From NCBI GenBank assembly GCA_902761225.1, contig CACWJQ010000047.1, positions 1-40,366 on the forward strand: DNA of 40,366 nucleotides. The letters run 5' to 3'. The stretch comes from an uncultured Lachnospiraceae bacterium (lineage in GTDB: Bacteria > Bacillota > Clostridia > Lachnospirales > Lachnospiraceae). Positions 5,144-35,894 of the stretch are shown here, piece by piece. How positions within the stretch are numbered: position 1 is the stretch's first letter; each line of letters begins with the position of its first letter. The position numbers and the translations under genes are program-made. The notes beneath the pieces were generated by a model that was not told the DNA's origin, did no database searches, and saw only the letters and a list, made by a program, of their open reading frames with translations.

Positions 5144-6940
5144 ATGAGATTCTCAGATGAATTTATAGAGGAAGTAAAGGCACGCAACGACATAGCCGAT
5201 GTTGTGGGCAGTTATATCCCTCTTAAGAAAAAAGGGAATAATTACTGGGGACTGTGCCCTTTCCATAACGAGAAGACAGCTTCCTTTTCCGTCTATCCTC
5301 CCAAACAGATGTATCACTGCTTCGGATGCGGCGAAGGAGGCAATGTCATAAGCTTTGTCATGAAGTATGAAAATGCATCCTTCACAGAGGCGGTCAGAAC
5401 TCTTGCCGAGAGAGCCGGAATGGAGGTAAAGGGCGAGGAGGAGACAGGAGAGGACAGAGCAAGAAGGGCGCGAAACGATATACTCAGACAGATCAATTCG
5501 GATGCGGCCCTCTTTTTCATGAACAACCTGTATTCGGCCCATGGCCAGAAGGGCCTGGGATATCTGAAGGACAGGGGACTTACGGATGAGACCATAAGGC
5601 ATTTTGGCCTGGGATTTGCAGGCAATAACGGAAAGGCCGTTGTTGAGCATCTGAGGGAAAAGGGTTATTCCGATGAGATGATCATCGCAGCAGGCCTTGC
5701 CACCAATTCCGAGAAATACGGTATGGGCTGTTCCTTCTTCGGAAGAGTGATGTTCCCCATAATAACCACTGATAAGAAGGTTATAGGCTTCGGAGGAAGA
5801 GTTCTCGGTACGGGAGAGCCGAAGTACCTGAACACTTCCGAGACTCCGATATTCGATAAGCGAAGGAACCTGTACGGATACAACTTTGCAAGAAAGTCCA
5901 GAAAAAAGTATTATATCCTCTGCGAAGGGTATATGGATGTCATATCAATGCATCAGGCAGGTTTCGATTCTGCCATAGCATCTCTCGGTACGGCATTTAC
6001 CGAGGAGCAGGCAGCCATGATAAAGCGTGACGGCCGTGAGGTGTATCTGGCATATGACATGGATGAAGCCGGGGAAAAGGCCGCTCTAAGAGCAGTCAGA
6101 ATGCTGACAGCGGTGGGAGTCACACCCAGGAGGATAAGTGTGAAGCCCTGCAAGGATCCCGATGAATTCATCAGTAAGTATGGCAAAGAGGAATTTGAAA
6201 AAAGGCTGAACGATGCGGCCAACGGTTTCCTCTATATCGAAGATAAGGTGATGGAGAGGTACAACCTTTCAGATCCCGAAGAAAGATATAAATGCGAACG
6301 GGAGATCGTTGAGAATCTGTGGATGTTCGCCCGGGATGAGGTCAGGATGAACTCATATGCCGAAAGCATCGTTACGAAATACGGCTATACCAAGTCCGAA
6401 GTCTCCAAGCTCCTGGAAGAGACCAGACCAAGGGAGTATCCTTCCAAGGCCGCACCTGTAACCACATCATATTCACCTCCCAAAAAGGCGGTGGGTAAGA
6501 AGAAGGAAAGCGGCTGGACCGCAGCGGAAAGTTCATTGCTGACATGGATCACCGATGAACCGGATGTGTACAGCGTGGTAAGAAGGTATTTAAAGCCCGA
6601 TGACTTTTCACCCGGATCCTGCAGAACGGTTGCCGTAAAAGCATTCGAACTGCTTGAACAGGGCACCTACAGTAACAAGGCATTGTTCGACAGTCTGGAA
6701 GATGAAGAAACTGTATCGGACGCCACGGGAATACTGCAGAATTCCGCCCCTGATATAGATACGCCCGAAAAAAGAATGGCAATGCTCAAGGATCTTATCA
6801 TCAAAGTGATGGAAAGAAAGTGCGAACTGATCGCCCTTTCGGAAGATCCGGAGAAGGAACTGAAGATATTCAAATGCAGGATTGAAATCGATGAACTAAA
6901 ATCCGGAAAGCTGCGGATTAGTGATGAGGAGGAGAATTAA
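5144..6940 (+). CDS. dnaG: DNA primase
   Basis: A 598-residue primase that makes RNA primers at the replication fork. The N-terminal zinc finger is visible: CPFH (C38, H41) and CFGC (C59, C62). A primase core follows with a Toprim domain: EGYMDVI with the catalytic Glu at about residue 261, and AYDMDEAG with Asp 305 and 307. The C-terminal region from about residue 450 would be the helicase-binding domain. ATG 5144 is chosen because AGAGGTG lies just upstream; a GTG at 5117 is also in frame but has no clear ribosome site. It sits between the dGTPase-like gene and rpoD, the classical macromolecular synthesis arrangement. The rpoD start follows its stop after 2 bp, so they are co-translated. 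Confidence 0.96.
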
Positions 6941-6942
6941 CA

Positions 6943-9219
6943 ATGGCTAAGAAAGTTGAAAAGAAAGACTTAAAGAAGACTATGACAAAGAACACCAAGA
7001 CAGCAGCCAAGCCTGCGGCAAAACCGGCTGTTAAGAGCTCCAAGCCTGCCTCCAAGTCTGCGGCAAAACCGGCTGCAAAGAGTGCAAAGCCTGCAGCAAA
7101 GGCAACCGCAAAGAGCACAAAGCCTGCGGCAAAGGCACCTGCAAAGAGTGCAAAGCCTGCAGCTAAGGCACCTGCAAAGAGCACAAAGCCTGCGGCAAAG
7201 ACACCCGCAAAGAGCACAAAGCCCGCAGCAAAGGCACCTGTAAAGAGTACAAAGCCTGCAGCTAAGGCACCTGCAAAGAGTGCAAAGCCTGCAGCTAAGA
7301 CACCTGCAAAGAGCGCAAAGCCCGCAGTTAAGACTACTACAAAGAGCGCAAAGCCTGCAGCAAAGGCACCTGCAAAGAGCGCAAAGTATGCAGCAAAGGC
7401 ACCTGCAAAGAGCGCAAAGCCTGCAGCAAAGGCATCTGCAAAGAGTGCAAAGCCCGCAGCAAAGGCACCTGCAAAGAGTGCAAAGCCTGCAGCAAAGGCA
7501 CCTGCAAAGAGCACAAAGCCTGCTGCTAAGGCACCTGCAAAGAGCGCAAAGCCTGCGGCAAAGGCACCTGCAAAGAATGCAAAGCCTGCAGCAAAGGCAC
7601 CTGCAAAGAATGCTAAGCCTGCGGCAAAGGCGCCTGCAAAGAGTGCGAAGCCCGCAGCAAAGACTGCTTCAAAGGCAGTTAACAACAATAACAAGACATC
7701 ATCCAAGACAGTAAAGCCTGCAGCAAAGGCACCTGCTAAGGCAGCTGCAAAAACAGCCGCAAAGCCCGCAGCAAAGGCGCCTGCAAAGAATGCTAAGCCT
7801 GCAGATAAGACATCCGAGAAGAATACGAAGAATATGAGTAAAGTACCTGTAAAAACAACTAAACCTGCGTCCGATGCTACGGCAAAGGAAAACGCTAAGA
7901 ATACAAAGGCAAAGGCCGCTGCCGAAGATAAGGCGGCTAAGAAGGAAGAGAAGGCCGTTAAGAAGGAAGATAAAGCAGCTAAGAAGGAAGAGAAGAAACA
8001 GACCGAGACAAAACAGAAGGGTCCCAAAGCTAAAGAGGCAGTAGAAGAGAACAAGGAAAACGCTGAAGCTACCATCGAAGAAAAGCTTCAGCAGATAGTT
8101 GAGAATCTTACCAAGAAAGCCAAGAAGGGCAATAAGGGTAAGGGTGCAGAGATAGATTATATAGAGATCACCGAAGAGGTAATGAAGGTTACCGACGATG
8201 ACGAGAAGATCGATAAGGTTATCGAAATGCTCGCTCAGAACGGCGTGGATGTCCTTTCGATGGAGCCCATCGATTCGGGTATCGATCTTGATTTCGAGAT
8301 TGACGAACCCAGTGCGGACGATCTTGCGGATGCCGAAGATGAGGGCATCGACAGAATAGATATCGATGCACTGGTTGAAGGCGTAAGCATCGAAGATCCT
8401 GTCCGCATGTATCTCAAGGAGATAGGTAAGGTCGATCTTCTTTCAGCAGAGGATGAGATTGAACTTGCCAAGAGAATGGAGAACGGAGATGAGGAGGCCA
8501 AGAATGCACTTGCAGAGGCTAACCTCAGACTTGTTGTATCCATCGCCAAGAGATATGTGGGAAGAGGAATGCTTTTCCTTGACCTGATCCAGGAAGGAAA
8601 CCTCGGACTTATCAAGGCAGTTGAGAAGTTCGATTACCGCAAGGGATACAAGTTCTCCACATATGCAACATGGTGGATCAGACAGGCTATAACCAGAGCG
8701 ATCGCGGATCAGGCACGTACCATCCGTATTCCTGTTCACATGGTCGAGACCATCAACAAGCTCATACGTGTGAGCCGTCAGCTCCTTCAGACCCTGGGAA
8801 GAGAGCCGAGCCCCGAAGAGATCGCTGCAGAGATGAACATTCCCGAAGAGAAGGTTCGCGAGATCCTTAAGATCTCCCAGGAGCCTGTATCTCTCGAGAC
8901 TCCCATAGGTGAGGAGGAAGATTCGCATCTCGGTGACTTCATTGAGGATGATAATGTGCCTGCTCCCGCAGAGGCCGCTACACAGATGCTTCTCAGGGAA
9001 CAGCTTGATAAGGTGCTGGATTCTCTTACAGAAAGAGAGAAGAAGGTGCTCAGACTCCGCTTCGGTCTCGACGACGGAAGACAGCGTACTCTCGAGGAGG
9101 TAGGCAAGGAGTTCAACGTTACCCGTGAGAGGATCAGACAGATAGAAGCCAAGGCACTCCGCAAGCTCCGTCATCCCAGCCGTTCCAAGCAGCTTAAGGA
9201 TTACCTGGAGGATACATGA
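6943..9219 (+). CDS. rpoD: Primary sigma factor RpoD (sigma-70/SigA) with a long Lys/Ala/Pro repeat extension
   Basis: A 758-residue housekeeping sigma factor, about twice the usual length of about 370. Residues 1 to about 370 form a low-complexity basic extension dominated by Lys, Ala and Pro, including 18 tandem 11-residue repeats (residues 46-243), followed by a mixed Lys/Glu stretch. A region 1.1-like domain starts near residue 380. Region 1.2 begins near 485 ([11 protein letters not shown]), region 2 near 527 ([12 protein letters not shown]), and [14 protein letters not shown] carries 2.3/2.4. Region 4 starts near 696 ([13 protein letters not shown]) with the helix-turn-helix [20 protein letters not shown]. 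All core regions look intact, so it should recognise standard -35/-10 promoters. The start at 6943 has GAGGAG upstream and follows dnaG closely. No start codon with a good ribosome site was noticed between the repeats and region 1.1. Confidence 0.95.
7078..7671 (+). repeat. 18 tandem copies of a 33-bp repeat inside rpoD
   Basis: Eighteen consecutive units of 33 bp each encode [13 protein letters not shown] with small variations. Third-position bases vary between units (for example GCA, GCG, GCT, GCC), so selection seems to keep the protein rather than the DNA. The repeat resembles the C-terminal tail of histone H1 and of bacterial histone-like proteins. The long antisense frame over this region is a by-product of the repeat. 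Confidence 0.92.
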
Positions 9220-25661: not shown

Positions 25662-25688
25662 TTAGCACTCAGAGCATCTGAGTGCTAA
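25662..25688. promoter_or_regulatory. CIRCE element (HrcA operator) upstream of htpG
   Basis: TTAGCACTC, nine bases, then GAGTGCTAA is a perfect match to the CIRCE consensus bound by the heat-shock repressor HrcA. It lies 8 bp before the -35 of the htpG promoter. Being a palindrome followed by six T, it can also work as a terminator for the upstream operon. Confidence 0.95.
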
Positions 25689-25724: not shown

Positions 25725-25781
25725 AGGTTTTGTTGAAAAAATGCAGCGCATTTGTTGCGTTTAAGGAGGCAGATATTATGA

Positions 25782-27842
25782 GTGAAAAAATTGGAAATAA
25801 TCAAGAAGTGGATGTATTCAGATCATGATATTTTCTATCGTGAACTGGTATCAAACGGGTGTGATGCCGTTACCAAGCTTAAGAAGCTTGATATGATGGG
25901 TGAATATGAACTTCCCGAAGGCTACAAGGGAAGGATCGATGTATGTCTTGATCCCAAGGAAAAGACCATAACCATTACCGATAACGGACTTGGAATGACC
26001 GCGGATGAGGTTGAGGAGTACATCACCAAGATCGCATTTTCGGGAGCTACCGATTTCATCGAGAAGTACAAGGATAAGAGCAATTCCGACCAGATAATCG
26101 GACATTTCGGACTCGGATTCTATTCCGCGTTCATGGTTGCGGATGAAGTCCATATAGATACTCTGTCGTATAAAGAGGGTGCACAGCCGGTTCACTGGGA
26201 ATGCGACGGAAGCACTTCATATCAGATCTCTGACGGCGATAAGGCTGAGGTCGGTACGAAGATCACCCTGTTCGTAAATGAGGACTGCCTTGAGTTCTGC
26301 AATGAATACAAGGCAAGAGAGGTTCTCAAAAAATACTGCGGATTCATGCCCACAGAGATCTACATGACCAAGAAGGATGATGATTCCACCGAGACCATCG
26401 ATCTTGAGGATAAGAGAGATGATGATGTTGTTGTGGAGGAGATCCATCCCACGGTAGAGAAGAAGGAAGACGGAACCGAGGAGGTAAAGGGCAAGGAGCG
26501 TCTCAAGATAAAGAAGCGTCCCGAACTTATCAACGATCCCAATCCTCTCTGGACCAGGACTCCTTCCGAGTGCAAGAAGGAGGATTACCTCGAGTTCTAC
26601 CGCAAGGTATTTCAGGACTACAAGGAGCCTCTTTTCTGGATACACATGAACATGGATTATCCTTTCAACATGAAGGGAATCCTGTATTTCCCCAAGATCA
26701 ATATGGAATATGATTCTCTTGAGGGAACCATCAAGCTTTACAATAACCAGGTGTTCATCGCCGACAATATCAAGGAGGTCATCCCCGAGTTCCTGATGCT
26801 CTTAAAGGGTGTCATCGACTGCCCGGACCTTCCTCTGAACGTTTCAAGAAGCGCACTTCAGAACGACGGATTCGTTAATAAGATCTCGGAGTATATCTCC
26901 AAGAAGGTTGCAGAGAAGCTGTCGGGAATGTGCAAGACCGAGAAGGAAGAATACGAGAAGTACTGGGATGACATAGCTCCCTTCATCAAGTTCGGATGCC
27001 TCAAGGATGACAAGTTCTGTACCAAGATGAACGATTACATCCTCTTCAAAAACATCGACGGAAAGTATCTGACACTTCCCGAGTGCCTTGAGACGAAGCC
27101 TGTGGATGATGAGACGGAAGAGGGCGAAGAGAACACTGAAAAGGCTTCTGAAGATACCGCGGAAAAGACTGCAGATGAAGCTTCAGAAACCGGATCCGAA
27201 GAAGAGAAGGAAGAAGAGAAGAAGGAAAAGACCATCTACTATGTGACCGATGAACAGCAGCAGAGCCAGTATATTGCAATGTTCAAGGCAGCCAAGATGG
27301 ATGCAGTGATCCTTACCCACAATATCGATATGCCCTTCATACAACAGCTTGAGAGCAAGAATGAGGGAATAAGCTTCAAGCGTATCGATGCAGATGTCAC
27401 AGACGCCATGAAGAGCAAGACTTCCAAGAAGGCAGAGGAGGAACTTGCAGAGCTGACCACCAAGGTTGAGGGCATCATGAAGAAAGTCCTCAAGAAGGAT
27501 AAGATCACCATTAAGGTTGAAAAGCTCAAGAACAAAAAGGTTGCATCCATGCTCACTCTTTCCGAGGAGACCCGCAGAATGCAGGATATGATGAAGATGT
27601 ACTCCGCAAGGGGAATGGATATGGGCGACTTCGGAAGCGAAGGCGAGACCCTCATCCTGAATGCGGGACATCCCCTTGTAAAGTATGTTACCGAGCATGA
27701 GGATGGTGAGAACACCAGGATGATCTGCGAACAGCTCTATGACCTTGCCAAGATCCAGCAGGCACCTCTTTCCGCAGATGATATGGCCAGGTTCATCACA
27801 AGGAGCAATGATATACTGATGCTTCTTACGGAAGAAAAATGA
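25782..27842 (+). CDS. htpG: Hsp90-family chaperone HtpG, N-terminus damaged
   Basis: The reading frame gives 686 residues from GTG 25782. ATP-binding motifs are present: RELVSNGCDAVTKLKK (E21, N25), TDNGLGM (67-72) and GHFGLGFYS. A Glu-rich insert (about residues 435-485) divides the middle part. The ribosome site AAGGAGG at 25763-25769 best fits ATG 25778, but that frame stops after 16 codons (MSEKIGNNQEV, then a stop). Lachnospiraceae HtpG proteins that I recall start with a segment ending in INSENIFPIIKKWLYSDHDIF. Here only IIKKWMYSDHDIF remains, so about 12 residues are missing and the frame is shifted. Translation could still start at GTG 25782, giving a shortened N-terminus without the first beta strand, which swaps between subunits in active Hsp90. 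A CIRCE element and a promoter lie upstream, and a terminator follows. Confidence 0.85.
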   Translation: MKKLEIIKKWMYSDHDIFYRELVSNGCDAVTKLKKLDMMGEYELPEGYKGRIDVCLDPKEKTITITDNGLGMTADEVEEYITKIAFSGATDFIEKYKDKSNSDQIIGHFGLGFYSAFMVADEVHIDTLSYKEGAQPVHWECDGSTSYQISDGDKAEVGTKITLFVNEDCLEFCNEYKAREVLKKYCGFMPTEIYMTKKDDDSTETIDLEDKRDDDVVVEEIHPTVEKKEDGTEEVKGKERLKIKKRPELINDPNPLWTRTPSECKKEDYLEFYRKVFQDYKEPLFWIHMNMDYPFNMKGILYFPKINMEYDSLEGTIKLYNNQVFIADNIKEVIPEFLMLLKGVIDCPDLPLNVSRSALQNDGFVNKISEYISKKVAEKLSGMCKTEKEEYEKYWDDIAPFIKFGCLKDDKFCTKMNDYILFKNIDGKYLTLPECLETKPVDDETEEGEENTEKASEDTAEKTADEASETGSEEEKEEEKKEKTIYYVTDEQQQSQYIAMFKAAKMDAVILTHNIDMPFIQQLESKNEGISFKRIDADVTDAMKSKTSKKAEEELAELTTKVEGIMKKVLKKDKITIKVEKLKNKKVASMLTLSEETRRMQDMMKMYSARGMDMGDFGSEGETLILNAGHPLVKYVTEHEDGENTRMICEQLYDLAKIQQAPLSADDMARFITRSNDILMLLTEEK

Positions 27843-27858
27843 TCACTGAGTTAAAAGC

Positions 27859-27905
27859 GGGTGAATGGGGGCGGTTTACCGTCCTCCGTTCACCCCTTTT
27901 TATTT
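27859..27905 (+). terminator. Rho-independent terminator after htpG
   Basis: GGGTGAA pairs with TTCACCC, and an inner GGCGGT pairs with ACCGTC, followed by CTTTTTATTT. It begins 17 bp after the htpG stop codon. Confidence 0.82.
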
Positions 27906-27931
27906 ACTAAATCCCACTCTTTTGGTATAAT
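27903..27931 (+). promoter_or_regulatory. Promoter of the four-gene DUF5717-type operon
   Basis: TTTACT (27903-27908) and a perfect TATAAT (27926-27931) are separated by 17 bp and lie about 35 bp before ATG 27966. The four genes that follow are tightly packed, so this is probably their common promoter. No CIRCE is present here. Confidence 0.75.
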
Positions 27932-27965: not shown

Positions 27966-30900
27966 ATGCGCCGGGTTCTTTCGAGAATATTACAGGGCAA
28001 TTACACATCTGAAGATCTTACTCTTGACTTCTCCTGTTCCAGGATTGAATTGGATGTTCCGGCGGGTGAGGAATATGAGGGATCTTTTCACGTATATTCA
28101 CCCACATCTTCCGTTCCCGAGGGTAAGATAATATCATCCGACCTGAGAATGGTACTTATCAACGATACTCTTACCGGAACCGATTCGGAGATAATATTCA
28201 GACTTGAGAAGGATTACTGTTACGAGGGAGATACGGTAAAGGGAGTCTTTTCCGTGATTTCCAATATGGGCGAGTATTATATTCCCTTCACCGTTAATAT
28301 CATCAGGGCTGTTCCCGAATCATCCATAGGTCCCATCAGGAATCTGTTCCACTTCACCAATCTTGCGAGAGCAGACTGGAAGGAAGCGGTCTCGCTTTTC
28401 TATTCAAGACATTTTCGCAGTGTCATAGCTGATGCCGACACCCAGACTAAGCTTGCATATAAGGCTCTTTCCACCCAGAGAGGCAATGAGATGGGTGTGG
28501 AGGAGTTTCTTATCTATGCCGGCAAGAAGAACAGGGTAACATACAGCTTCAAAAGCGGTGAGATAGATATCAATATTCCTGCAAGAGAAAGAGGCAGCGG
28601 CCTCAAGGAAGTGGGAGTCGAGATAAGCAAGGACGGATGGGGATATACACGTCTTAATGTCAGATGCGAGGGTGAATTCCTGTTCACCGAGACCAAGTCT
28701 CTGTGCGAGAATGATTTCTCCGGCAATATCTGTACTCTCAAGCTTTTCGTAGATACTTCAGGATGCGCTCCCGGTCTTCATCCCGGCAAGATCATTCTGT
28801 TCAATTCATATACAGAGCTGGTGATCCCTGTTTCCTTAAGCGTTGGAGGCAAGTCCAAGATCGCAGGCATGCAGCGTTCAAGAAAGGCTCTTTTTGTCAG
28901 GGTTACTGACTGCTATATCCGTAATCTCCTGGGCTCGGACAGCGGAAGTGCATTTATCGCCGAGCAGAACAGACTTGTGGATCAGATGCTGACGCTGGAT
29001 GAGTGCGATATAACAGCCAAGCTCATGCAGGCTCATCTCCTTCTCATACAGGGAAGGGAGAGCGAAGCTGAATGGACCTGTGGTTATGCATCCGATCTTC
29101 TTGAGAAGAATGAGGGTGCAAGGGCCGTTAATTCAAGATCCTATGTCCTTGATGCCGCCTATCTTGATTATCTGAGGATCAAGACCGGAGACGAGAAGAC
29201 ATCGAAGAGAGCCCGCAGACATCTCGAGGAGATGACGAAGCGTTTCCGCGATGACTGGCGCGTAAGATGGCTTTATGCCAAGGTCCGCTATGAGGAAAAC
29301 AGCGATCAGGGTGCAATGTGGGATGAGATGAAGCATATCTGTGAAGAAGGATGCAACAGCCCTGTCATTTATGCTGAGGGCACCATGCTTCTTAAGGACG
29401 ATCCTTCACTTGCTTCGGAGCCTGACAGGTTTACGCTTCAGACGATCCTCTTCGGTCTCAAGAAGGAAGTGCTGGGCGAGGAACTTAAGGAGAATCTGCT
29501 CTATATCTCCGGAAGAAGCCGTACATCCATACCGCTCCTTCTCAGAAATCTTGAGCTTATGTATTCCGTAAGTCCGGATAACCGTGTCCTTGAAGAGATC
29601 TGTTCGCAGCTGATCAGAAGCTTCAGGAGGGATAAGGAATCCGCAGAGTGGTACAGGAAGGCCACACTTGAAGATATCAAACTCACCAATCTATATGAGA
29701 ACTATGTGATGAGTCTCGATGAGAACTCATTTGCCGATATCCCGATGAACGTGCTTAAGTACTTCTCGATGTCGGATACTCTCGATGCACCCCATACGGC
29801 AAGTCTGTATCACTATGTGATCAGACACAAGAAGGAATTAGGTCCTCTTCTGGATGTGTATCTTCCCAAAATGGAAAGCTTTGCCCTTGACCAGATAGGG
29901 AAGGGAATCATCACAAGACATCTTGCAGCTCTTTACTATGATGTGGTAAGTCCCGCATCACTTGACAGGAATAATGCCAGGATCTTCGCCGACATGCTCT
30001 TTTCAGTGTGGCTTAAGACAACGGATCCCAAGTATGTCAAAGCCTTCGTATACCAGAAGGGCTTCAGGCATCCCTGGGAATACAAGCTCGGTGAAGGCGG
30101 GGGCTGGGTATCCGTGTACGGAAGCGATTATGTCATCGCTCTCGAGGATACACAGGGCAACAGGTATGTAAAGAGCGGAGAATATACTCTTGAAAAGCTC
30201 ATGCTTCCCGGAAAATTCATGAAGGCGGTGTCGGATTGCGTATACGATAACGACAGGTTCAACATGAGCATTCTCTCATCCATTAAGGGTGAGGACAGGA
30301 TCGATGAGACCAATATACTGAGATATCAGAATCTTGCTGCTTCCACCGGACTCGAGAAGCATACGGCAGATGAGTACCTCCTTAAGATACTTGATTACTA
30401 CGCCGTTGCAGGCGACAGGAGTGCTCTTGTAAACGGTCTTAAGAAGATAGATCCCGTTCTTATGAGTCCCGCCAACAGATGCGAGATCATGAGGCTTATG
30501 CTTCAGACCTCTGACTATAAGCCTATCTATGAACTGATAAAGAGCTGCGGTCCCTATTTTGCGGATCCCAGATATATGCAGACCTTCCTCGACAGACAGC
30601 TCATGGATACCGAGGAGGAAGATCCCTTCCTTACAGCCTCTGCCATCTACTGCATCAGTCTCGGCAAGAAGGACGGTATCATCTTAAAATATCTGTCATT
30701 GTATTATCGCGGTCAGTGTAAGGACCTGAGAAATATATGGAAGATGTCAGCGGGATACGGCGTTGACAGAAGGGCCATCGAGGAGCGGATGCTGATACAG
30801 ATGCTGTACAGCGGAGCATTCGTTGGCGAGAGAAACGATATCTTCGAGGATTATCTTACCCAGGAACCGGACCCTGATGTGGTGAAGGCGTTCCTGCTCC

Positions 30901-31592
30901 AGTCCTGTTACGATTATTTTGTACATGAGAAACTGATATCTCCCGGTGTTTTTGCGGAGCTTGACAAGCTCGAGCAGGAAACGGGTGTGCTTCCCAAAGA
31001 GGCAGGACTTGCATATCTTAAGTACTATTCCGAAAGCCCCAGGGAAATGGATGATGCTATAAGGGAGAGAGTCATTGATCTTCTCACCGGAATGATGAAG
31101 GAAAGGATACATCTGGGAATGTTCCAGAATTTCCTGTCCACCGAATCCTTCCCTGAAGGCGAGCTGAGAACAAGGCTTCTTGAAGTGATGGATGTGATGA
31201 GTGACAGGGCTGTCATTGATTACAGAGCTACGGAAGGAAACAGCGCCGTCATCCATTATACCTTTGCAAGCGAGCAGGATGAGAATGCAGGATACAAGGA
31301 AGAACGCATGAGGGATGTGTGCGGAGGCGTATGCTTCAAGGAGTTCGTGCTGTTCTTCGGAGAATGCGTTCAGTATTACATAACCGAGGAGACCGCTACC
31401 GGTTCCGAACTCAGGACCAGCGGAGTGCTCAGGAAAAACGATGTCCTCGGATCTGAGGACGGTTCAAAATTCGGACTTATATCCGATATGATCGTGAGCA
31501 ACACTCTTCAGGATTATGATACATTTGACAAGCTGTACGACGAATACTATAAGAAGGAGTTTCTGAACAAAAAGCTGTTCAGATTGGAGTGA
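27966..31592 (+). CDS. Very large beta/helical-repeat protein, DUF5717-like
   Basis: A 1208-residue protein without a signal peptide or membrane segment. The N-terminal region, about residues 20-115, reads as an immunoglobulin-like beta domain (FSCSRIELDVPAGEEYEG). A second beta-rich region lies at about 185-295 (GGYTR-like pattern and LHPGKIILFNSYTELVIPVS). The middle, about 300-1080, is all-helical with repeated Ala/Leu/Tyr patterns of 30-40 residues, like a TPR or similar solenoid. The last 120 residues are beta-rich again (CFKEFVLFFGECVQYYITEE). From memory this fits the Lachnospiraceae family DUF5717; no activity is known. It is the first gene of a four-gene operon; the next gene starts 1 bp after its stop codon. 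ATG 27966 has GAAGGTGGGG upstream. Confidence 0.7.
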   Translation: MRRVLSRILQGNYTSEDLTLDFSCSRIELDVPAGEEYEGSFHVYSPTSSVPEGKIISSDLRMVLINDTLTGTDSEIIFRLEKDYCYEGDTVKGVFSVISNMGEYYIPFTVNIIRAVPESSIGPIRNLFHFTNLARADWKEAVSLFYSRHFRSVIADADTQTKLAYKALSTQRGNEMGVEEFLIYAGKKNRVTYSFKSGEIDINIPARERGSGLKEVGVEISKDGWGYTRLNVRCEGEFLFTETKSLCENDFSGNICTLKLFVDTSGCAPGLHPGKIILFNSYTELVIPVSLSVGGKSKIAGMQRSRKALFVRVTDCYIRNLLGSDSGSAFIAEQNRLVDQMLTLDECDITAKLMQAHLLLIQGRESEAEWTCGYASDLLEKNEGARAVNSRSYVLDAAYLDYLRIKTGDEKTSKRARRHLEEMTKRFRDDWRVRWLYAKVRYEENSDQGAMWDEMKHICEEGCNSPVIYAEGTMLLKDDPSLASEPDRFTLQTILFGLKKEVLGEELKENLLYISGRSRTSIPLLLRNLELMYSVSPDNRVLEEICSQLIRSFRRDKESAEWYRKATLEDIKLTNLYENYVMSLDENSFADIPMNVLKYFSMSDTLDAPHTASLYHYVIRHKKELGPLLDVYLPKMESFALDQIGKGIITRHLAALYYDVVSPASLDRNNARIFADMLFSVWLKTTDPKYVKAFVYQKGFRHPWEYKLGEGGGWVSVYGSDYVIALEDTQGNRYVKSGEYTLEKLMLPGKFMKAVSDCVYDNDRFNMSILSSIKGEDRIDETNILRYQNLAASTGLEKHTADEYLLKILDYYAVAGDRSALVNGLKKIDPVLMSPANRCEIMRLMLQTSDYKPIYELIKSCGPYFADPRYMQTFLDRQLMDTEEEDPFLTASAIYCISLGKKDGIILKYLSLYYRGQCKDLRNIWKMSAGYGVDRRAIEERMLIQMLYSGAFVGERNDIFEDYLTQEPDPDVVKAFLLQSCYDYFVHEKLISPGVFAELDKLEQETGVLPKEAGLAYLKYYSESPREMDDAIRERVIDLLTGMMKERIHLGMFQNFLSTESFPEGELRTRLLEVMDVMSDRAVIDYRATEGNSAVIHYTFASEQDENAGYKEERMRDVCGGVCFKEFVLFFGECVQYYITEETATGSELRTSGVLRKNDVLGSEDGSKFGLISDMIVSNTLQDYDTFDKLYDEYYKKEFLNKKLFRLE

Positions 31593-31593
31593 T

Positions 31594-32898
31594 ATGTTAA
31601 AACTTCCGGGGGGCTTTGGCGGTTCCGGAAAACGATATATTGTAGGGTTTGACCTGACCGACACTTCCTGCGGCATCAGTTACTGTTCAGACCAGGGTGA
31701 TATCCGGACCGTTTCACTGGTTGCGGGTTCGGAGGAGTATGTCATTCCCATGGCTCTTTCCAAGAGGCATGGGGCCGGACAGTGGTTCTTCGGAAAAGAT
31801 GCCTTTGCATCGGCTGAAGCCGGGGAGAGTATTCTTGTCGGCAATCTTTTCAGCAAGGCTCTGTGGGGTGAGGATACCCATATAGACGGTCTTGTGTACG
31901 GAGCAGGAAGCCTCTTTACTCTTTATCTGAAGAGAGCCTTCGGACTTTTACAGAGTGTAGGTTCTTCCGACCGGATGGAAGCGGTTATGTTCACACTTCC
32001 GGAGGTGACTGTTCCTGCAATGGAGCTTATCAGGGAATCGCTGAAGAGCCTTCATATCAAGACCGATAAGATATACTTCATGTCCCACTCGGAGAGCTTC
32101 TATCATTATGTTGCAAGCCAGGGGTATGAAAGACTGCATTCCAATCCGGTTCTCTTTACCGTTGATGACAGGAAGCTGTGCATGACCAGGCTTCCCGTGA
32201 ACAGGCATACCATTCCCCAGGTTGTACATGCAGAGACTTCATACTTCGAACTTCCCAAGGACAGAGGAACTCTTCCGGACGATCTTGACAGTATGCTGTT
32301 AAAAGCAGTGCAGGGATCGGCTGTCTTCGGACAGGATTATTCATACTACCTGGTAGGCGAAGAGTTTACAGAAGATTCACTTTCCAATTCCCTCAAGTAT
32401 ATGTGCAACAAGGGAAAGGTTTTCGGAGGAACCAACCTGTTTTCCAAGGGGGCGGTGCTGGCACTTCTCGAGAAGAATGAAGTGACAGGCGCTGCGACCA
32501 GGAACAGGAAAAACAGCGGTGAGAAGAAGCCGGAATTCATATTCCTCGGAGATGACAAGCTTACCAGCAATATAGGAATGAACCTGTTAAGTCAGGGAAC
32601 GGAAGCCTATTACGCACTTCTTGATGCGGGGACATGCTGGTTCGAAGCTGAAGCGACCGTTGAATTCTATATATCCGGCGGAAACGATGTGACACTTTCC
32701 GTATCCTCGATAACAGGGGGCGGCAAGTCGGATGTGATAATCAGTCTTGAGGGCTATGAGGGTGAGCTTACCAGAATGAAGCTGACCGCTTCGATGTCCG
32801 ATATCAAGACATTGTTTGTGGTCATAGAGGATATGGGACTCGGTGCATTCACCAAGACCAAAGCAAGTAAGTGGGAAGAGGAGATAGTGCTTCCGTAA
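31594..32898 (+). CDS. Actin/Hsp70-fold-like protein, DUF5716-like
   Basis: A 434-residue soluble protein. It begins with YIVGFDLTDTSCGISY, which has the pattern of the phosphate-1 loop of the actin/Hsp70/sugar kinase fold (GIDLGTTNS in Hsp70). A kinase-like middle part follows (MEAVMFTLPEVTVPAMELI, VLFTVDDRKLCMTRLPV and FIFLGDDKLTSNIGM). The C-terminal region AEATVEFYISGGNDV is probably a beta domain. This fits the family I know as DUF5716. Whether it binds ATP is not settled: the first motif is present, but other canonical motifs are not clearly seen. TGGAG lies just before ATG 31594. The stop overlaps the start of the TPR gene by 1 bp. Confidence 0.65.
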   Translation: MLKLPGGFGGSGKRYIVGFDLTDTSCGISYCSDQGDIRTVSLVAGSEEYVIPMALSKRHGAGQWFFGKDAFASAEAGESILVGNLFSKALWGEDTHIDGLVYGAGSLFTLYLKRAFGLLQSVGSSDRMEAVMFTLPEVTVPAMELIRESLKSLHIKTDKIYFMSHSESFYHYVASQGYERLHSNPVLFTVDDRKLCMTRLPVNRHTIPQVVHAETSYFELPKDRGTLPDDLDSMLLKAVQGSAVFGQDYSYYLVGEEFTEDSLSNSLKYMCNKGKVFGGTNLFSKGAVLALLEKNEVTGAATRNRKNSGEKKPEFIFLGDDKLTSNIGMNLLSQGTEAYYALLDAGTCWFEAEATVEFYISGGNDVTLSVSSITGGGKSDVIISLEGYEGELTRMKLTASMSDIKTLFVVIEDMGLGAFTKTKASKWEEEIVLP

Positions 32899-33758
32899 TG
32901 GGCTCAAGAATTTCACTCGGAATAGGAATATATTCGCAGGTTCCCTATGTGATACCCGGTATAGAGATACCGGTGTACTGCATAGAGGAGCTTTGTGTTG
33001 CCTTCAGGGAAAATGCCGTTCTCATCGATGACCAGATCATGAACAAGGCCTTAACGGAATGGATATACAGGGATCTGGAACTGCGGGAACTTGCTGACGG
33101 GCTGGCCGGAATAATGAACAAGAAGCCCTCACTGGGTGAGTTCTGCAGATACATAATGGAGTATACCGGACTTTTTGACAGGGGTGTCATATTTGATGTC
33201 TGCAGGAAGCTTACCATGGGAGCCGGAATGTCCACCATGGAGCGTCAGAAGAAACAGGCCGATACCCTGGCGGAAAACGGTAATTATGAGGCCGCGATCC
33301 ATGCATACCGGAACATGATCGATAAATGGAGCGAATCGGTAAATGAAGAATCGCCGGTCACCGCAAGACTTCTGGGAAGCGTATATAACAATCTGGGATG
33401 CTCATATGCTGGCATGATGAAATACAGACTTGCAGCAGCTTCCTTTAAGAAAGCCTACGGATATGACCCTACACCGGAACACCGTCACTGCTATGTTGCA
33501 TCACTCAGGCTGTCCATGACGAATACCGAATTTGTAGGCTTTGTTGCGGATAATCCGGAATACGGACCGGAGTCCATCGATATAGAGAGCGAGATAGACA
33601 GTCTGAAGAAGGAGTATGAGACCGGGGGAGAAGGCATCACCCACCAGATCATGAAGACGACAAGAGCCCAGTTCGATGGTGCGGACATATCTCTTGATAA
33701 TGAGCACATAATAGAGGGGCTTAAGGATAGGTACAGGAATCAGCTTCCGGTGAGTTAA
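32898..33758 (+). CDS. TPR-containing protein of the four-gene operon
   Basis: A 286-residue soluble protein. ATG 32898 overlaps the preceding stop (TAATG). The N-terminal part, about 1-105, has a conserved start of the type IPGIEIPVYCIEELCVAF, then LTEWIYRDLELRELAD, which I recall in many Clostridia proteins of unknown role. Residues 110-210 contain TPR-like helices (ADTLAENGNYEAAIHAYRNM, then GSVYNNLGCSYAGMMKYRLA and AAASFKKAYGYDP). TPR domains bind other proteins, and TPR co-chaperones often bind Hsp70 or Hsp90; with its neighbours this suggests an adapter role. The stop codon is followed directly by the next ATG, so expression is coupled to it. Function unknown. Confidence 0.7.
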   Translation: MGSRISLGIGIYSQVPYVIPGIEIPVYCIEELCVAFRENAVLIDDQIMNKALTEWIYRDLELRELADGLAGIMNKKPSLGEFCRYIMEYTGLFDRGVIFDVCRKLTMGAGMSTMERQKKQADTLAENGNYEAAIHAYRNMIDKWSESVNEESPVTARLLGSVYNNLGCSYAGMMKYRLAAASFKKAYGYDPTPEHRHCYVASLRLSMTNTEFVGFVADNPEYGPESIDIESEIDSLKKEYETGGEGITHQIMKTTRAQFDGADISLDNEHIIEGLKDRYRNQLPVS

Positions 33759-34937
33759 ATGGGATTTTTCTCAAAACTGTTAAAAAAAGCATCATGGAAA
33801 AAGACGGTCTTCAATGAATCCGAGAACGAGGATATCATCTATGACAGGGAAGGCATAGACTTTCATGACCAGACTCAGAGAACAAGGTATATCGCCGAGT
33901 GTCTCGAGCAGATGGCTGAGGGTTCCCGTGAGATGGATCTTCTCAAATCCGAGTACGACATGGTGACTTCGTATCTGAAGGATATGGAGGAGATAGAGGC
34001 TCTTCCCGGTGCCCAGAGATCCGAGGTAAACGCCATAGCACGAAAGCTCATGTCCTATGAAGAGGATATAGAGAAGTTCCGGAGCAGAAAATCTCCTCTT
34101 ACCGATGAACAGTTTGCATCTCTCAGAAGGAGGGAGAAGGATATCCCCGGCGGCCTTGCCACAATCAAGGAAAATGAGCGGATGGCAGTCCTTATCCGGA
34201 AGGATCTCAAAAGGCTTGACGGCGAGAGAAAGGCTCTTGCCTTCAGAAGAAATGAGCTCCATGAGACCATGGACAATATGCGCGGCATGGCGATCATATT
34301 TACCACTGCAGCCGCGCTTCTTCTTTTGATCCTTGTCATAATGCAGTTTGCTCTTGGCATGAACGTCTATATCGGGTATTTTCTGTGCATCGCCTGTGCC
34401 GCCATAGCCCTTACAGTGGTATGCGTAAGATTCATCGATGCGAATCATGAACTTGCCAAGACATCCGGAAGCATGGGAAAGCTCATCCAGCTTCAGAATA
34501 CTGTCAAGATCAGATATGTGAATAACCGCAATCTGCTTTCATATCTGTACATCAAGTATGAATGTAAGAACGGAAAGGAACTGGAAGAGCTGTGGAGCAT
34601 GTATTCACGCGAGGCTGAAGAGAGAAGACAGTTCAGCGAGAATTCCATAGGAGCGGTCGAAGCCAGGGAAGACCTCATAAGGCTTCTTGCCAGGTATCAC
34701 ATAGCAAAGCCTGCCAGATGGGTGGATCAGATCCCTGCCCTGCTTGACAAGAGGGAGATGGTGGAACTAAGGCACGGATATATACTCAGAAGGCAGTCCC
34801 TCAGGGAACAGATAGATTATAATGACTCTCTGGCACGCTCTGCCAAGAACGAGATAACCGGTGTGGCCAAGGCGTATCCCATGTATGCTTCGGAGATACT
34901 TGAGATGACAGAGAAGTTCGAACCTGAAGGGGCATAA
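33759..34937 (+). CDS. Coiled-coil protein with two membrane segments
   Basis: A 392-residue protein, last of the four-gene operon. A long charged helical region spans about residues 40-170 (SEYDMVTSYLKDMEEIE, and similar heptad-rich stretches). It is followed by two close hydrophobic segments (about 176-197, MAIIFTTAAALLLLILVIM, and 202-224, VYIGYFLCIACAAIALTVV). A second long helical region runs to the end. The topology suggests a hairpin in the membrane with both coiled-coil ends in the cytoplasm, a good anchor for the three soluble partners. No domain was recognised with certainty. The gene begins directly after the TPR gene stop, without a good ribosome site. A promoter for purC lies directly behind it. 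Confidence 0.65.
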   Translation: MGFFSKLLKKASWKKTVFNESENEDIIYDREGIDFHDQTQRTRYIAECLEQMAEGSREMDLLKSEYDMVTSYLKDMEEIEALPGAQRSEVNAIARKLMSYEEDIEKFRSRKSPLTDEQFASLRRREKDIPGGLATIKENERMAVLIRKDLKRLDGERKALAFRRNELHETMDNMRGMAIIFTTAAALLLLILVIMQFALGMNVYIGYFLCIACAAIALTVVCVRFIDANHELAKTSGSMGKLIQLQNTVKIRYVNNRNLLSYLYIKYECKNGKELEELWSMYSREAEERRQFSENSIGAVEAREDLIRLLARYHIAKPARWVDQIPALLDKREMVELRHGYILRRQSLREQIDYNDSLARSAKNEITGVAKAYPMYASEILEMTEKFEPEGA

Positions 34938-34972: not shown

Positions 34973-35021
34973 ATGTTGGTCTTTTACATGACCATTTATG
35001 AAATTGAAAGAGGAGAAGAAA

Positions 35022-35894
35022 ATGGAAGAACTTAAGCCGGTAAAAGAGGGAAAAGTAAGGGAGATCTATGATAACGGAGATTCTCTGATCATGGTAGCTA
35101 CCGACAGGATCAGCTGCTTTGACGTGATACTCCACAATATCGTTACCAAGAAGGGTACAGTCCTTACCCAGATCTCAAAGTTCTGGTTCGATTACACAAA
35201 GGATATCGTTCCCAATCACATGATCACTACCGATAATAACGAGATGCCTGAGTATTTCAGACAGCCTCAGTTTGTCGGCAATTCAATGATGTGCAGAAAG
35301 CTTGAGATGCTTCCTCTCGAGTGCATCGTAAGAGGATATATCACAGGAAGCGGCTGGGCTTCATATCAGAAGAACGGAACTGTATGCGGTATAACCCTTC
35401 CCGAGGGACTTAAGGAAAGCGAGAAGCTTCCTGAGCCCATCTATACTCCTTCAACCAAGGCTGAGATCGGTGATCACGATGAGAACATCTCTTATGAGCA
35501 GAGCATCGCACATCTCGAGAAATATTATCCCGGAAAGGGAGAGGAGTATGCTTCAAAGCTTAAGGAGCTTACCATCACTCTTTATAAGAAGTGTGCGGAT
35601 TACGCCCTTACAAGAGGCATCATCATTGCAGATACCAAGTTCGAGTTCGGACTTGATGAGGAAGGCAATATCGTTCTTGCAGACGAGATGCTCACTCCCG
35701 ACAGCTCCAGATTCTGGCCTCTTGAGGGATACGAAGCAGGAAAGAGCCAGCCTTCATTTGACAAGCAGTTCGCTCGCGATTGGCTGAAGGCTCATGAAGG
35801 AGAGCATGACTGGACTCTTCCTCAGGATATCGTAGACAAGACCATCGAGAAGTATCTCGAAGGCTACAGACTTCTTACAGGAAGCGAACTTTAA
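35022..35894 (+). CDS. purC: Phosphoribosylaminoimidazole-succinocarboxamide synthase
   Basis: A 290-residue SAICAR synthetase that joins CAIR and aspartate with ATP in purine synthesis. KEGKVREIYDNGDSLIMVATDRISCFDVIL is the typical start, and LECIVRGYITGSGWASYQK and IIIADTKFEFGL with ADEMLTPDSSRFW are conserved substrate-binding stretches. ATG 35022 has AGAGGAG at 35009-35015; an upstream in-frame TTG or similar at 34998 is less likely. It heads a purC-purB-purA cluster with its own promoter. The usual purine operon genes purE, K, Q, L and F are not near, so de novo synthesis genes are dispersed in this genome. Confidence 0.96.
   Translation: MEELKPVKEGKVREIYDNGDSLIMVATDRISCFDVILHNIVTKKGTVLTQISKFWFDYTKDIVPNHMITTDNNEMPEYFRQPQFVGNSMMCRKLEMLPLECIVRGYITGSGWASYQKNGTVCGITLPEGLKESEKLPEPIYTPSTKAEIGDHDENISYEQSIAHLEKYYPGKGEEYASKLKELTITLYKKCADYALTRGIIIADTKFEFGLDEEGNIVLADEMLTPDSSRFWPLEGYEAGKSQPSFDKQFARDWLKAHEGEHDWTLPQDIVDKTIEKYLEGYRLLTGSEL

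Follow-up and report, generated by a model that had tools for sequence, protein, structure and literature searches.

The atypical Hsp70s of yeast (SSE, SSZ and LHS) are described, in the available part of one account, as co-chaperones of canonical partners (PMC3879978). In bacteria, the accessible text of Kaur et al. 2020 (PMC7159879) reports GAP1-N2 systems of actinobacteria and firmicutes with an HSP70, a GrpE and a second HSP70 that lacks the peptide-binding domain; FNIII proteins carrying a fused DnaJ or TPR part also occur in these neighbourhoods. The subject of the present analysis is a four-gene operon at 27966-34937 on the + strand of a 40,366-nucleotide stretch (the window) from an uncultured Lachnospiraceae bacterium (assembly GCA_902761225.1, contig CACWJQ010000047.1). 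Its second gene encodes a protein of the DUF5716 family that is almost certainly an Hsp70-derived pseudo-enzyme, and its first gene belongs to DUF5717; no study of either family, and no role for them, was found in the literature searched, where the one paper retrieved under these names is unrelated to judge from its title.

The four genes are separated by gaps of +1, -1 and 0 bases, the spacing of at most 1 bp reported by the first-pass annotation, which was made from the DNA letters alone. Gene 1 (27966..31592) encodes a scaffold-like DUF5717 protein of 1208 residues (PF18984, E 1.6e-213; PF18983, E 1.6e-76). Gene 2 (31594..32898) encodes the lidless pseudo-Hsp70 of 434 residues, identified by PF18980 (E 1.2e-65), fold, profile and tree. 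Gene 3 (32898..33758) encodes a protein whose N-terminal ~120 residues form a conserved domain and which matches TPR families (E 1.5e-6), in line with its first description as a TPR protein; its ATG at 32898 overlaps the stop of gene 2, and its open reading frame opens at 32871. Gene 4 (33759..34937), an optional member, encodes a 392-residue coiled-coil protein that reaches no Pfam family above its cut-off and has a single hydrophobic block at residues 173-229. This block spans two overlapping hydropathy windows and is compatible with two membrane helices in the middle of the protein, as the first-pass annotation had proposed. The family names DUF5716 and DUF5717, given in the first-pass annotation, were confirmed by scores far above the curated cut-offs (221.9 bits vs 34.7 for DUF5716_C; 711.6 and 257.8 vs 25 and 25 for DUF5717).

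The Hsp70 ancestry of gene 2 is supported by its predicted structure. The AlphaFold2 model (pLDDT 90.0, pTM 0.87) matches DnaK, Hsc70 and Ssz1 by Foldseek and VIA and contains the ASKHA nucleotide-binding domain fold, so the actin/Hsp70-like fold first proposed for 31594-32898 is upheld. The best structural match is Ssz1 in RAC, tied with DnaK, and spans both the nucleotide-binding domain (NBD) and SBD-beta. By sequence, Pfam gives no HSP70 match for the window protein, and Hsp70 is reached only through bridging orthologues, whose profile matches DnaK with E 7.8e-16; the hidden Markov model alignment continues beyond the NBD into SBD-beta, through residue 501 of 4rtf_D. A profile built from Lachnospiraceae DUF5716 only gave 0 matches to the PDB. 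The window protein alone, searched against PDB sequences, retrieved designed Pizza repeats (best E 2.4e-6, 38 residues) and chance matches, which were rejected.

The same protein lacks the features of an ATP-cycling chaperone. The ATPase signature was taken as the phosphate-1 Asp and TT, Lys70, Glu-Pro, the phosphate-2 Asp and GGGT, and the adenosine GG, and was read from an alignment anchored by the DnaK of each genome itself. Lys70, Glu-Pro and GGGT were found in 0/13 Lachnospiraceae DUF5716 proteins and in 0/31 DUF5716 proteins from the extended operons described below. The stretch from phosphate-2 to adenosine, which holds subdomain IIB, measures 59-78 residues in Lachnospiraceae, 134-152 in extended-operon DUF5716, 144-146 in one of the accompanying Hsp70s (HB) and 143 in DnaK; by this motif spacing, subdomain IIB, through which GrpE grips DnaK, is deleted in Lachnospiraceae. 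The window protein thus consists of a degenerate NBD without IIB (residues ~11-312; 31624..32529, +), delimited by catalytic residues and motif spacing, and an SBD-beta-like domain (residues ~313-434; 32530..32895, +), delimited by the DnaK profile alignment and by model strands to residue 432. The protein stops after these strands and has no alpha-helical lid. An ATP-cycling Hsp70 can therefore be set aside for gene 2, with the catalytic Lys, Glu-Pro, GGGT, IIB and lid all lacking, and the protein fits the atypical, non-cycling Hsp70s by its architecture and degenerate ATPase. Nucleotide binding may nevertheless persist, since the phosphate-1 Asp is kept in 10/13 of the Lachnospiraceae proteins. 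The mean frequency of the commonest residue is 0.59 in SBD-beta vs 0.61-0.70 in the parts of the NBD. The DUF5716 set compiled here comprised 77 rows, the window protein among them, after a few duplicate-looking or truncated rows had been dropped.

The origin of this pseudo-Hsp70 is indicated by longer operons in other families of the same order. Among 196 genomes sampled across the order, DUF5716 was matched in 92, at least 35 of them Lachnospiraceae, and had no match in 104. The extended set comprises 32 loci in 31 genomes of 13 other families, with eight to nine genes in the order DN-DC-HA-GE-PS-HB-HV-TP(-CC), where DN and DC are the N- and C-terminal halves of DUF5717, HA and HB are Hsp70s, GE is a GrpE protein, PS is the pseudo-Hsp70 (DUF5716), HV is an Hsp70/VWA protein, TP is a TPR protein and CC is a coiled-coil protein. 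The complete run DC-HA-GE-PS-HB-HV-TP, compared by printed gene order rather than by individual strands, occurs at 22/32 loci in 10 families, with DN in front in 15 of the 22 and CC behind in three. The other 10 loci are partial, several lying at contig or locus ends and others missing genes or split over two places.

At L033, one of the extended loci, Pfam assigns HSP70 to HA, HB, HV and PS, places a VWA domain at the C-terminal end of HV and recognises the DUF5717 halves in DN and DC. None of its Hsp70s reaches the NCBI DnaK or HscA cut-off, and no DnaJ occurs among the scanned genes of this locus. The GrpE domain lies at the C-terminal end of GE in 8/8 proteins tested. Once Hsp70-family frames shorter than 440 residues had been dropped, the full ATPase signature was present in HA (26/26), HB (30/30) and HV (25/26, the 26th being a piece of a split gene), and judged from protein length and domain ends, neither these three nor PS has a normal lid. 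In HV (L033:5787-7862 and its counterparts), the lid is replaced by the VWA domain, in which a DTTGSM motif resembling a metal site was seen by eye. At L032, the Hsp70-VWA gene (6340-8384) and the TPR gene (5205-6231) are each split into two frames. DN and DC seem, by length, to be fused at L190 and L198 (1326 and 1329 residues), both outside Lachnospiraceae, so that fusion of the DUF5717 halves may have occurred more than once.

Every gene of the three-gene core in the window has its counterpart in the extended operon. By hhalign, DUF5717 is orthologous to the separate DN and DC (E 7.8e-39 and 8.5e-86), and the window TPR protein is orthologous to TP, including its N-terminal part (E 2.3e-29); profile comparison likewise pairs DUF5716 with PS (E 1.2e-33). 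DUF5716 also aligns by hhalign with the HB Hsp70s over 422 columns. In a quick maximum-likelihood tree of 75 rows, which was limited to ten loci apiece for HA, HB and HV, carried SH-aLRT support only and had some long PS branches, Lachnospiraceae DUF5716 is nested within the PS clade (100), beside PS_L032 (99) and PS_L193 (96), with PS and HB as sister clades (100). Downstream of all three extended loci that carry CC lies valS, an arrangement shared with 13 Lachnospiraceae loci that fits reduction in place.

The genomes themselves differ in the same direction. A DnaK-like match was present in 25/25 Lachnospiraceae genomes searched for HSP70, and no neighbouring HA/HB/HV set was found in them. 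Their other HSP70 matches are mostly frames of ~330-370 residues, which we take to be of MreB size, and an additional Hsp70 of at least 560 residues is present in some genomes. In all four extended-operon genomes searched, adjacent HA, HB and HV genes occur in addition to DnaK. The window genome encodes a normal DnaK outside the operon. A profile of the GE N-terminal part matched 0/25 Lachnospiraceae genomes vs 8/11 others. Outside the order, the DUF5717 models found nothing above cut-off in 299 genomes of the phylum and 293 of the class, Lachnospiraceae members excepted; a partial match in a single class genome stayed below cut-off (E 8.3e-5). Judged from these sequence comparisons, the window operon is a reduced descendant of an extended multi-Hsp70 operon. 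For the chaperone-like complex suggested at first, a chaperone-type origin is strongly supported by the extended operons, in which GE accompanies three Hsp70s with an intact ATPase, but the window protein itself lacks the residues needed for ATP cycling. A further locus, L043:3817-8916 in genome G049 of another family, consists of DN-DC-PS without HA, GE, HB, HV or TP; the family of G049 also has full extended operons, and this arrangement suggests a second, apparently independent reduction to scaffold and pseudo-Hsp70.

Lachnospiraceae rank among the most abundant bacteria of the gut, and the reduced operon is nearly universal in them. DUF5716 is present, nearly always in single copy, in 247/250 Lachnospiraceae genomes and 246/249 genera, and true absence amounts to at most 2 genomes, because in one of the misses, G136, DUF5717 lies at the end of a contig. 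Gene order was compared in 60 neighbourhoods from different genera, hand-picked as 59 from the listed, better-scoring part of the 247 DUF5716 genomes plus G034. DUF5717, DUF5716 and the TPR gene keep their order in 60/60, with the two core gaps no longer than 50 bases in 56/60 and 59/60. The gene 4 homologue follows the core in only 26/60, and a search of the whole genome in the 34 without it behind the core found it in none (34/34), although both controls were found. In a more closely related set of 80 named loci, selected by DUF5717 pattern, all four genes are present in 78, and L128 and L148 are cut by contig ends. The expectation that four genes would stay together therefore holds for three of them, and the unit is best regarded as a fixed three-gene core with an optional membrane protein. 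The first-pass suggestion that the coiled-coil protein could anchor the set is not supported as a core role, since the gene was not found in 34/34 whole genomes. The surroundings vary among the 60 neighbourhoods, with valS downstream in 13 and purB or purC in others. The ratio of nonsynonymous to synonymous substitution rates is 0.06-0.11 where synonymous sites are unsaturated, vs 0.04-0.06 for htpG and purC; these rough values, with synonymous sites near saturation and one purC comparison excluded for a wrong frame, point to strong constraint on the operon.

DUF5717 has a scaffold-like predicted form. In the AlphaFold2 model of DUF5717 (residues 1-1200; pLDDT 83.9, pTM 0.55), beta-sandwich domains at ~27-113 and ~192-293 enclose a helical bundle and are followed by a helical solenoid (~298-678), a beta insert (~680-744), a second solenoid (~749-1078) and a C-terminal beta domain (~1081-1156), much as anticipated from the letters, where a 1208-residue beta/helical solenoid had been proposed. 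The protein is accordingly modelled as two Ig/PapD-like domains and a long helical solenoid; DUF5717 profiles gave 0 matches to PDB sequences. A weak common helical motif (W..A..F-like) occurs at 32898-33150, in the N-terminus of the TPR protein, and at 28320-28520, in DUF5717; it is clearer in the extended-operon proteins, and the hhalign comparison is not significant.

Our preferred reading, to which we give a probability of roughly 60%, is that the operon encodes a scaffold-bound, non-cycling Hsp70-type client holder, acting with housekeeping chaperones or alone. It builds on the computed fold, degeneracy, ancestry and gene cohesion and adds to them complex formation, client binding, an adaptor role for the TPR protein and anchoring by the coiled coil. 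DUF5717, with its Ig/PapD-like domains and long solenoid, would serve as the scaffold. The SBD-beta of DUF5716 would bind a peptide or partner without an ATP-driven cycle, like atypical Hsp70s such as Ssz1, while the TPR protein might act as an adaptor that recruits either a housekeeping chaperone or the client itself. The coiled-coil protein, in those genomes that encode it, could tether the assembly to the membrane. Overall, the operon would hold or place a client independently of ATP, in the service of a process that all members of the family share, and the partner chaperone in Lachnospiraceae would be DnaK, HtpG or none. In the extended operon, a co-chaperone role of DUF5716 beside intact Hsp70s is plausible by analogy, the yeast atypical Hsp70s providing a model in the portion of PMC3879978 available. 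More tentatively, the extended operon may form one large multi-Hsp70 complex with its own GrpE-type exchange factor, a TPR adaptor and the giant Ig/solenoid scaffold, from which Lachnospiraceae shed the ATP-driven parts to leave a fixed pseudo-Hsp70 scaffold, a bacterial counterpart of Ssz1/RAC.

The same parts could have been turned to a use outside protein folding. In that case the Hsp70 fold would have been reused in a cytoskeletal, signalling or envelope-assembly scaffold, with DUF5716 structural or ligand-sensing and no client held. The loss of catalytic motifs and IIB in the 13 Lachnospiraceae DUF5716 proteins checked is compatible with this, as are the Ig/PapD-like domains and long solenoids of the scaffold and the membrane coiled-coil partner in part of the family. 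A precedent is the Hsp70 homologue StkA of Myxococcus, which negatively regulates exopolysaccharide according to the accessible text of PMC4319316. However, SBD-beta is kept and is nearly as conserved as the parts of the NBD, and the operon from which the set descends encodes three intact Hsp70s together with a GrpE domain. Reuse of this kind is rather unlikely.

A second alternative, somewhat less likely again, places the operon in the heat-shock regulon as a specialised co-chaperone set of HtpG or DnaK. Upstream of the operon lies htpG (25782..27842, +; NF003555 HtpG, E 1.9e-192, above cut-off), preceded by a perfect CIRCE operator (25662..25688, +; exact TTAGCACTC-N9-GAGTGCTAA); shuffles average 0.03 sites even with up to 3 mismatches allowed. 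CIRCE and htpG likewise stand directly upstream in 5/8 same-genus loci, htpG is upstream on the same strand in 37/80 of the named, more closely related loci, and 1/60 of the genus-spread loci has upstream of it dnaK and then a gene judged by eye to be DnaJ-like. However, an intrinsic terminator (27853..27900, +; T-run by eye) closes the htpG unit; its stem-loop has a stability of -32.6 kcal/mol (z -6.25), equalled in 0/200 shuffles. Thus, htpG is a separate transcription unit, and CIRCE control does not obviously extend to the operon. Behind the terminator lies a candidate promoter, TTTACT-17-TATAAT with an extended -10 TG (27903..27931, +; 10/12 consensus match). A scan of 10 kb gave 24 promoter-like sites, where shuffles average 12.7; three reach 10/12, and this is the sole one of them with TG. 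It is a plausible but unproven operon promoter, so the good shared promoter claimed earlier is present as a candidate. Moreover, htpG is upstream in only 5/60 genus-spread loci, and the remaining neighbours vary. The placement directly behind a CIRCE-controlled Hsp90 gene, to which the first-pass annotation drew attention, is real in the window, but a terminator intervenes and the link is mostly local. The 5' end of htpG in the window (25755-25800) is ~30 bases shorter than in five same-genus loci (L210-L214), which puts the usual N-terminal residues out of frame and reflects a real lesion or an assembly error. On the other side, the next gene, outside the system, is purC (34998..35894, +; PF01259), which is downstream of the operon in 8/8 same-genus loci.

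The weakest alternative, a biological-conflict (immune) system like the HSP70- and GrpE-containing GTPase systems of multicellular bacteria, is very improbable: it draws on the HSP70, GrpE and TPR genes of GAP1-N2 neighbourhoods, as given in the accessible text of PMC7159879, on matches of the PADLOC candidate PDC-M61B to L033:7859-9499 (HB, E 3.9e-11) and L033:5787-7862 (HV, E 2e-7), and on weaker PADLOC matches (PrimPol to TP, 4.4e-6; JetC to CC, 4.7e-5; ZorA to GE, 0.0014), but the PDC-M61B match is confined to one ~190-residue stretch within the Hsp70 part, none of the four window proteins matched a PADLOC model at E 1, no GTPase family occurs among the operon genes scanned in the window and extended loci, and a near-universal, nearly always single-copy set in Lachnospiraceae is unlike patchy defence, even if the set is patchy outside the family.

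The domain types of this system are known, and the operon assembly and its reduction are undescribed in the literature searched; the main text of a survey of DnaK paralogues (PMC11019930) contains neither 'Lachnospir' nor 'Clostridi' by word search. Recognition of DUF5716 as a pseudo-Hsp70 turns three families of unknown function into one testable hypothesis, for a gene set that is near-universal in Lachnospiraceae yet has no role in that literature. The extended operon, with four Hsp70-family genes in fixed order, would be a chaperone system without a description there, and the series from it to Lachnospiraceae offers a natural experiment in which an ATP-driven chaperone set may have turned into a static scaffold.

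Compared with known systems, the operon resembles Myxococcus StkA, as far as the available part of PMC4319316 goes, in having an Hsp70 homologue, encoded in an operon, that serves a dedicated role outside heat shock; the partners described there are the SCP2-like StkB and the small StkC, with no pseudo-Hsp70 or scaffold. With the GAP1-N2 systems, the nearest ones described and as covered by the text cited above, it shares operonic HSP70s, one of them reduced, with GrpE and TPR/beta-sandwich partners, whereas it has no GTPase in the scanned genes, is near-universal in one family and includes the DUF5717 solenoid. Like DnaK/DnaJ/GrpE, it involves Hsp70 homologues (DUF5716 and three extended-operon proteins) and a GrpE domain in GE, but the four operon Hsp70-family proteins are without a normal lid, and those of L033 fall below the NCBI cut-offs and have no DnaJ beside them. 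A further parallel is Ssz1/RAC, along with the other atypical Hsp70s. No J-protein was found among the window operon genes, and DUF5716 is sister to a bacterial operon Hsp70 in a tree from which Ssz1 is absent; unlike Ssz1, it is bacterial, lacks IIB and has a giant solenoid and a TPR protein as operon partners. Common to both are the Hsp70 fold, an NBD joined to SBD-beta, and an architecture from which a full ATP cycle is not expected.

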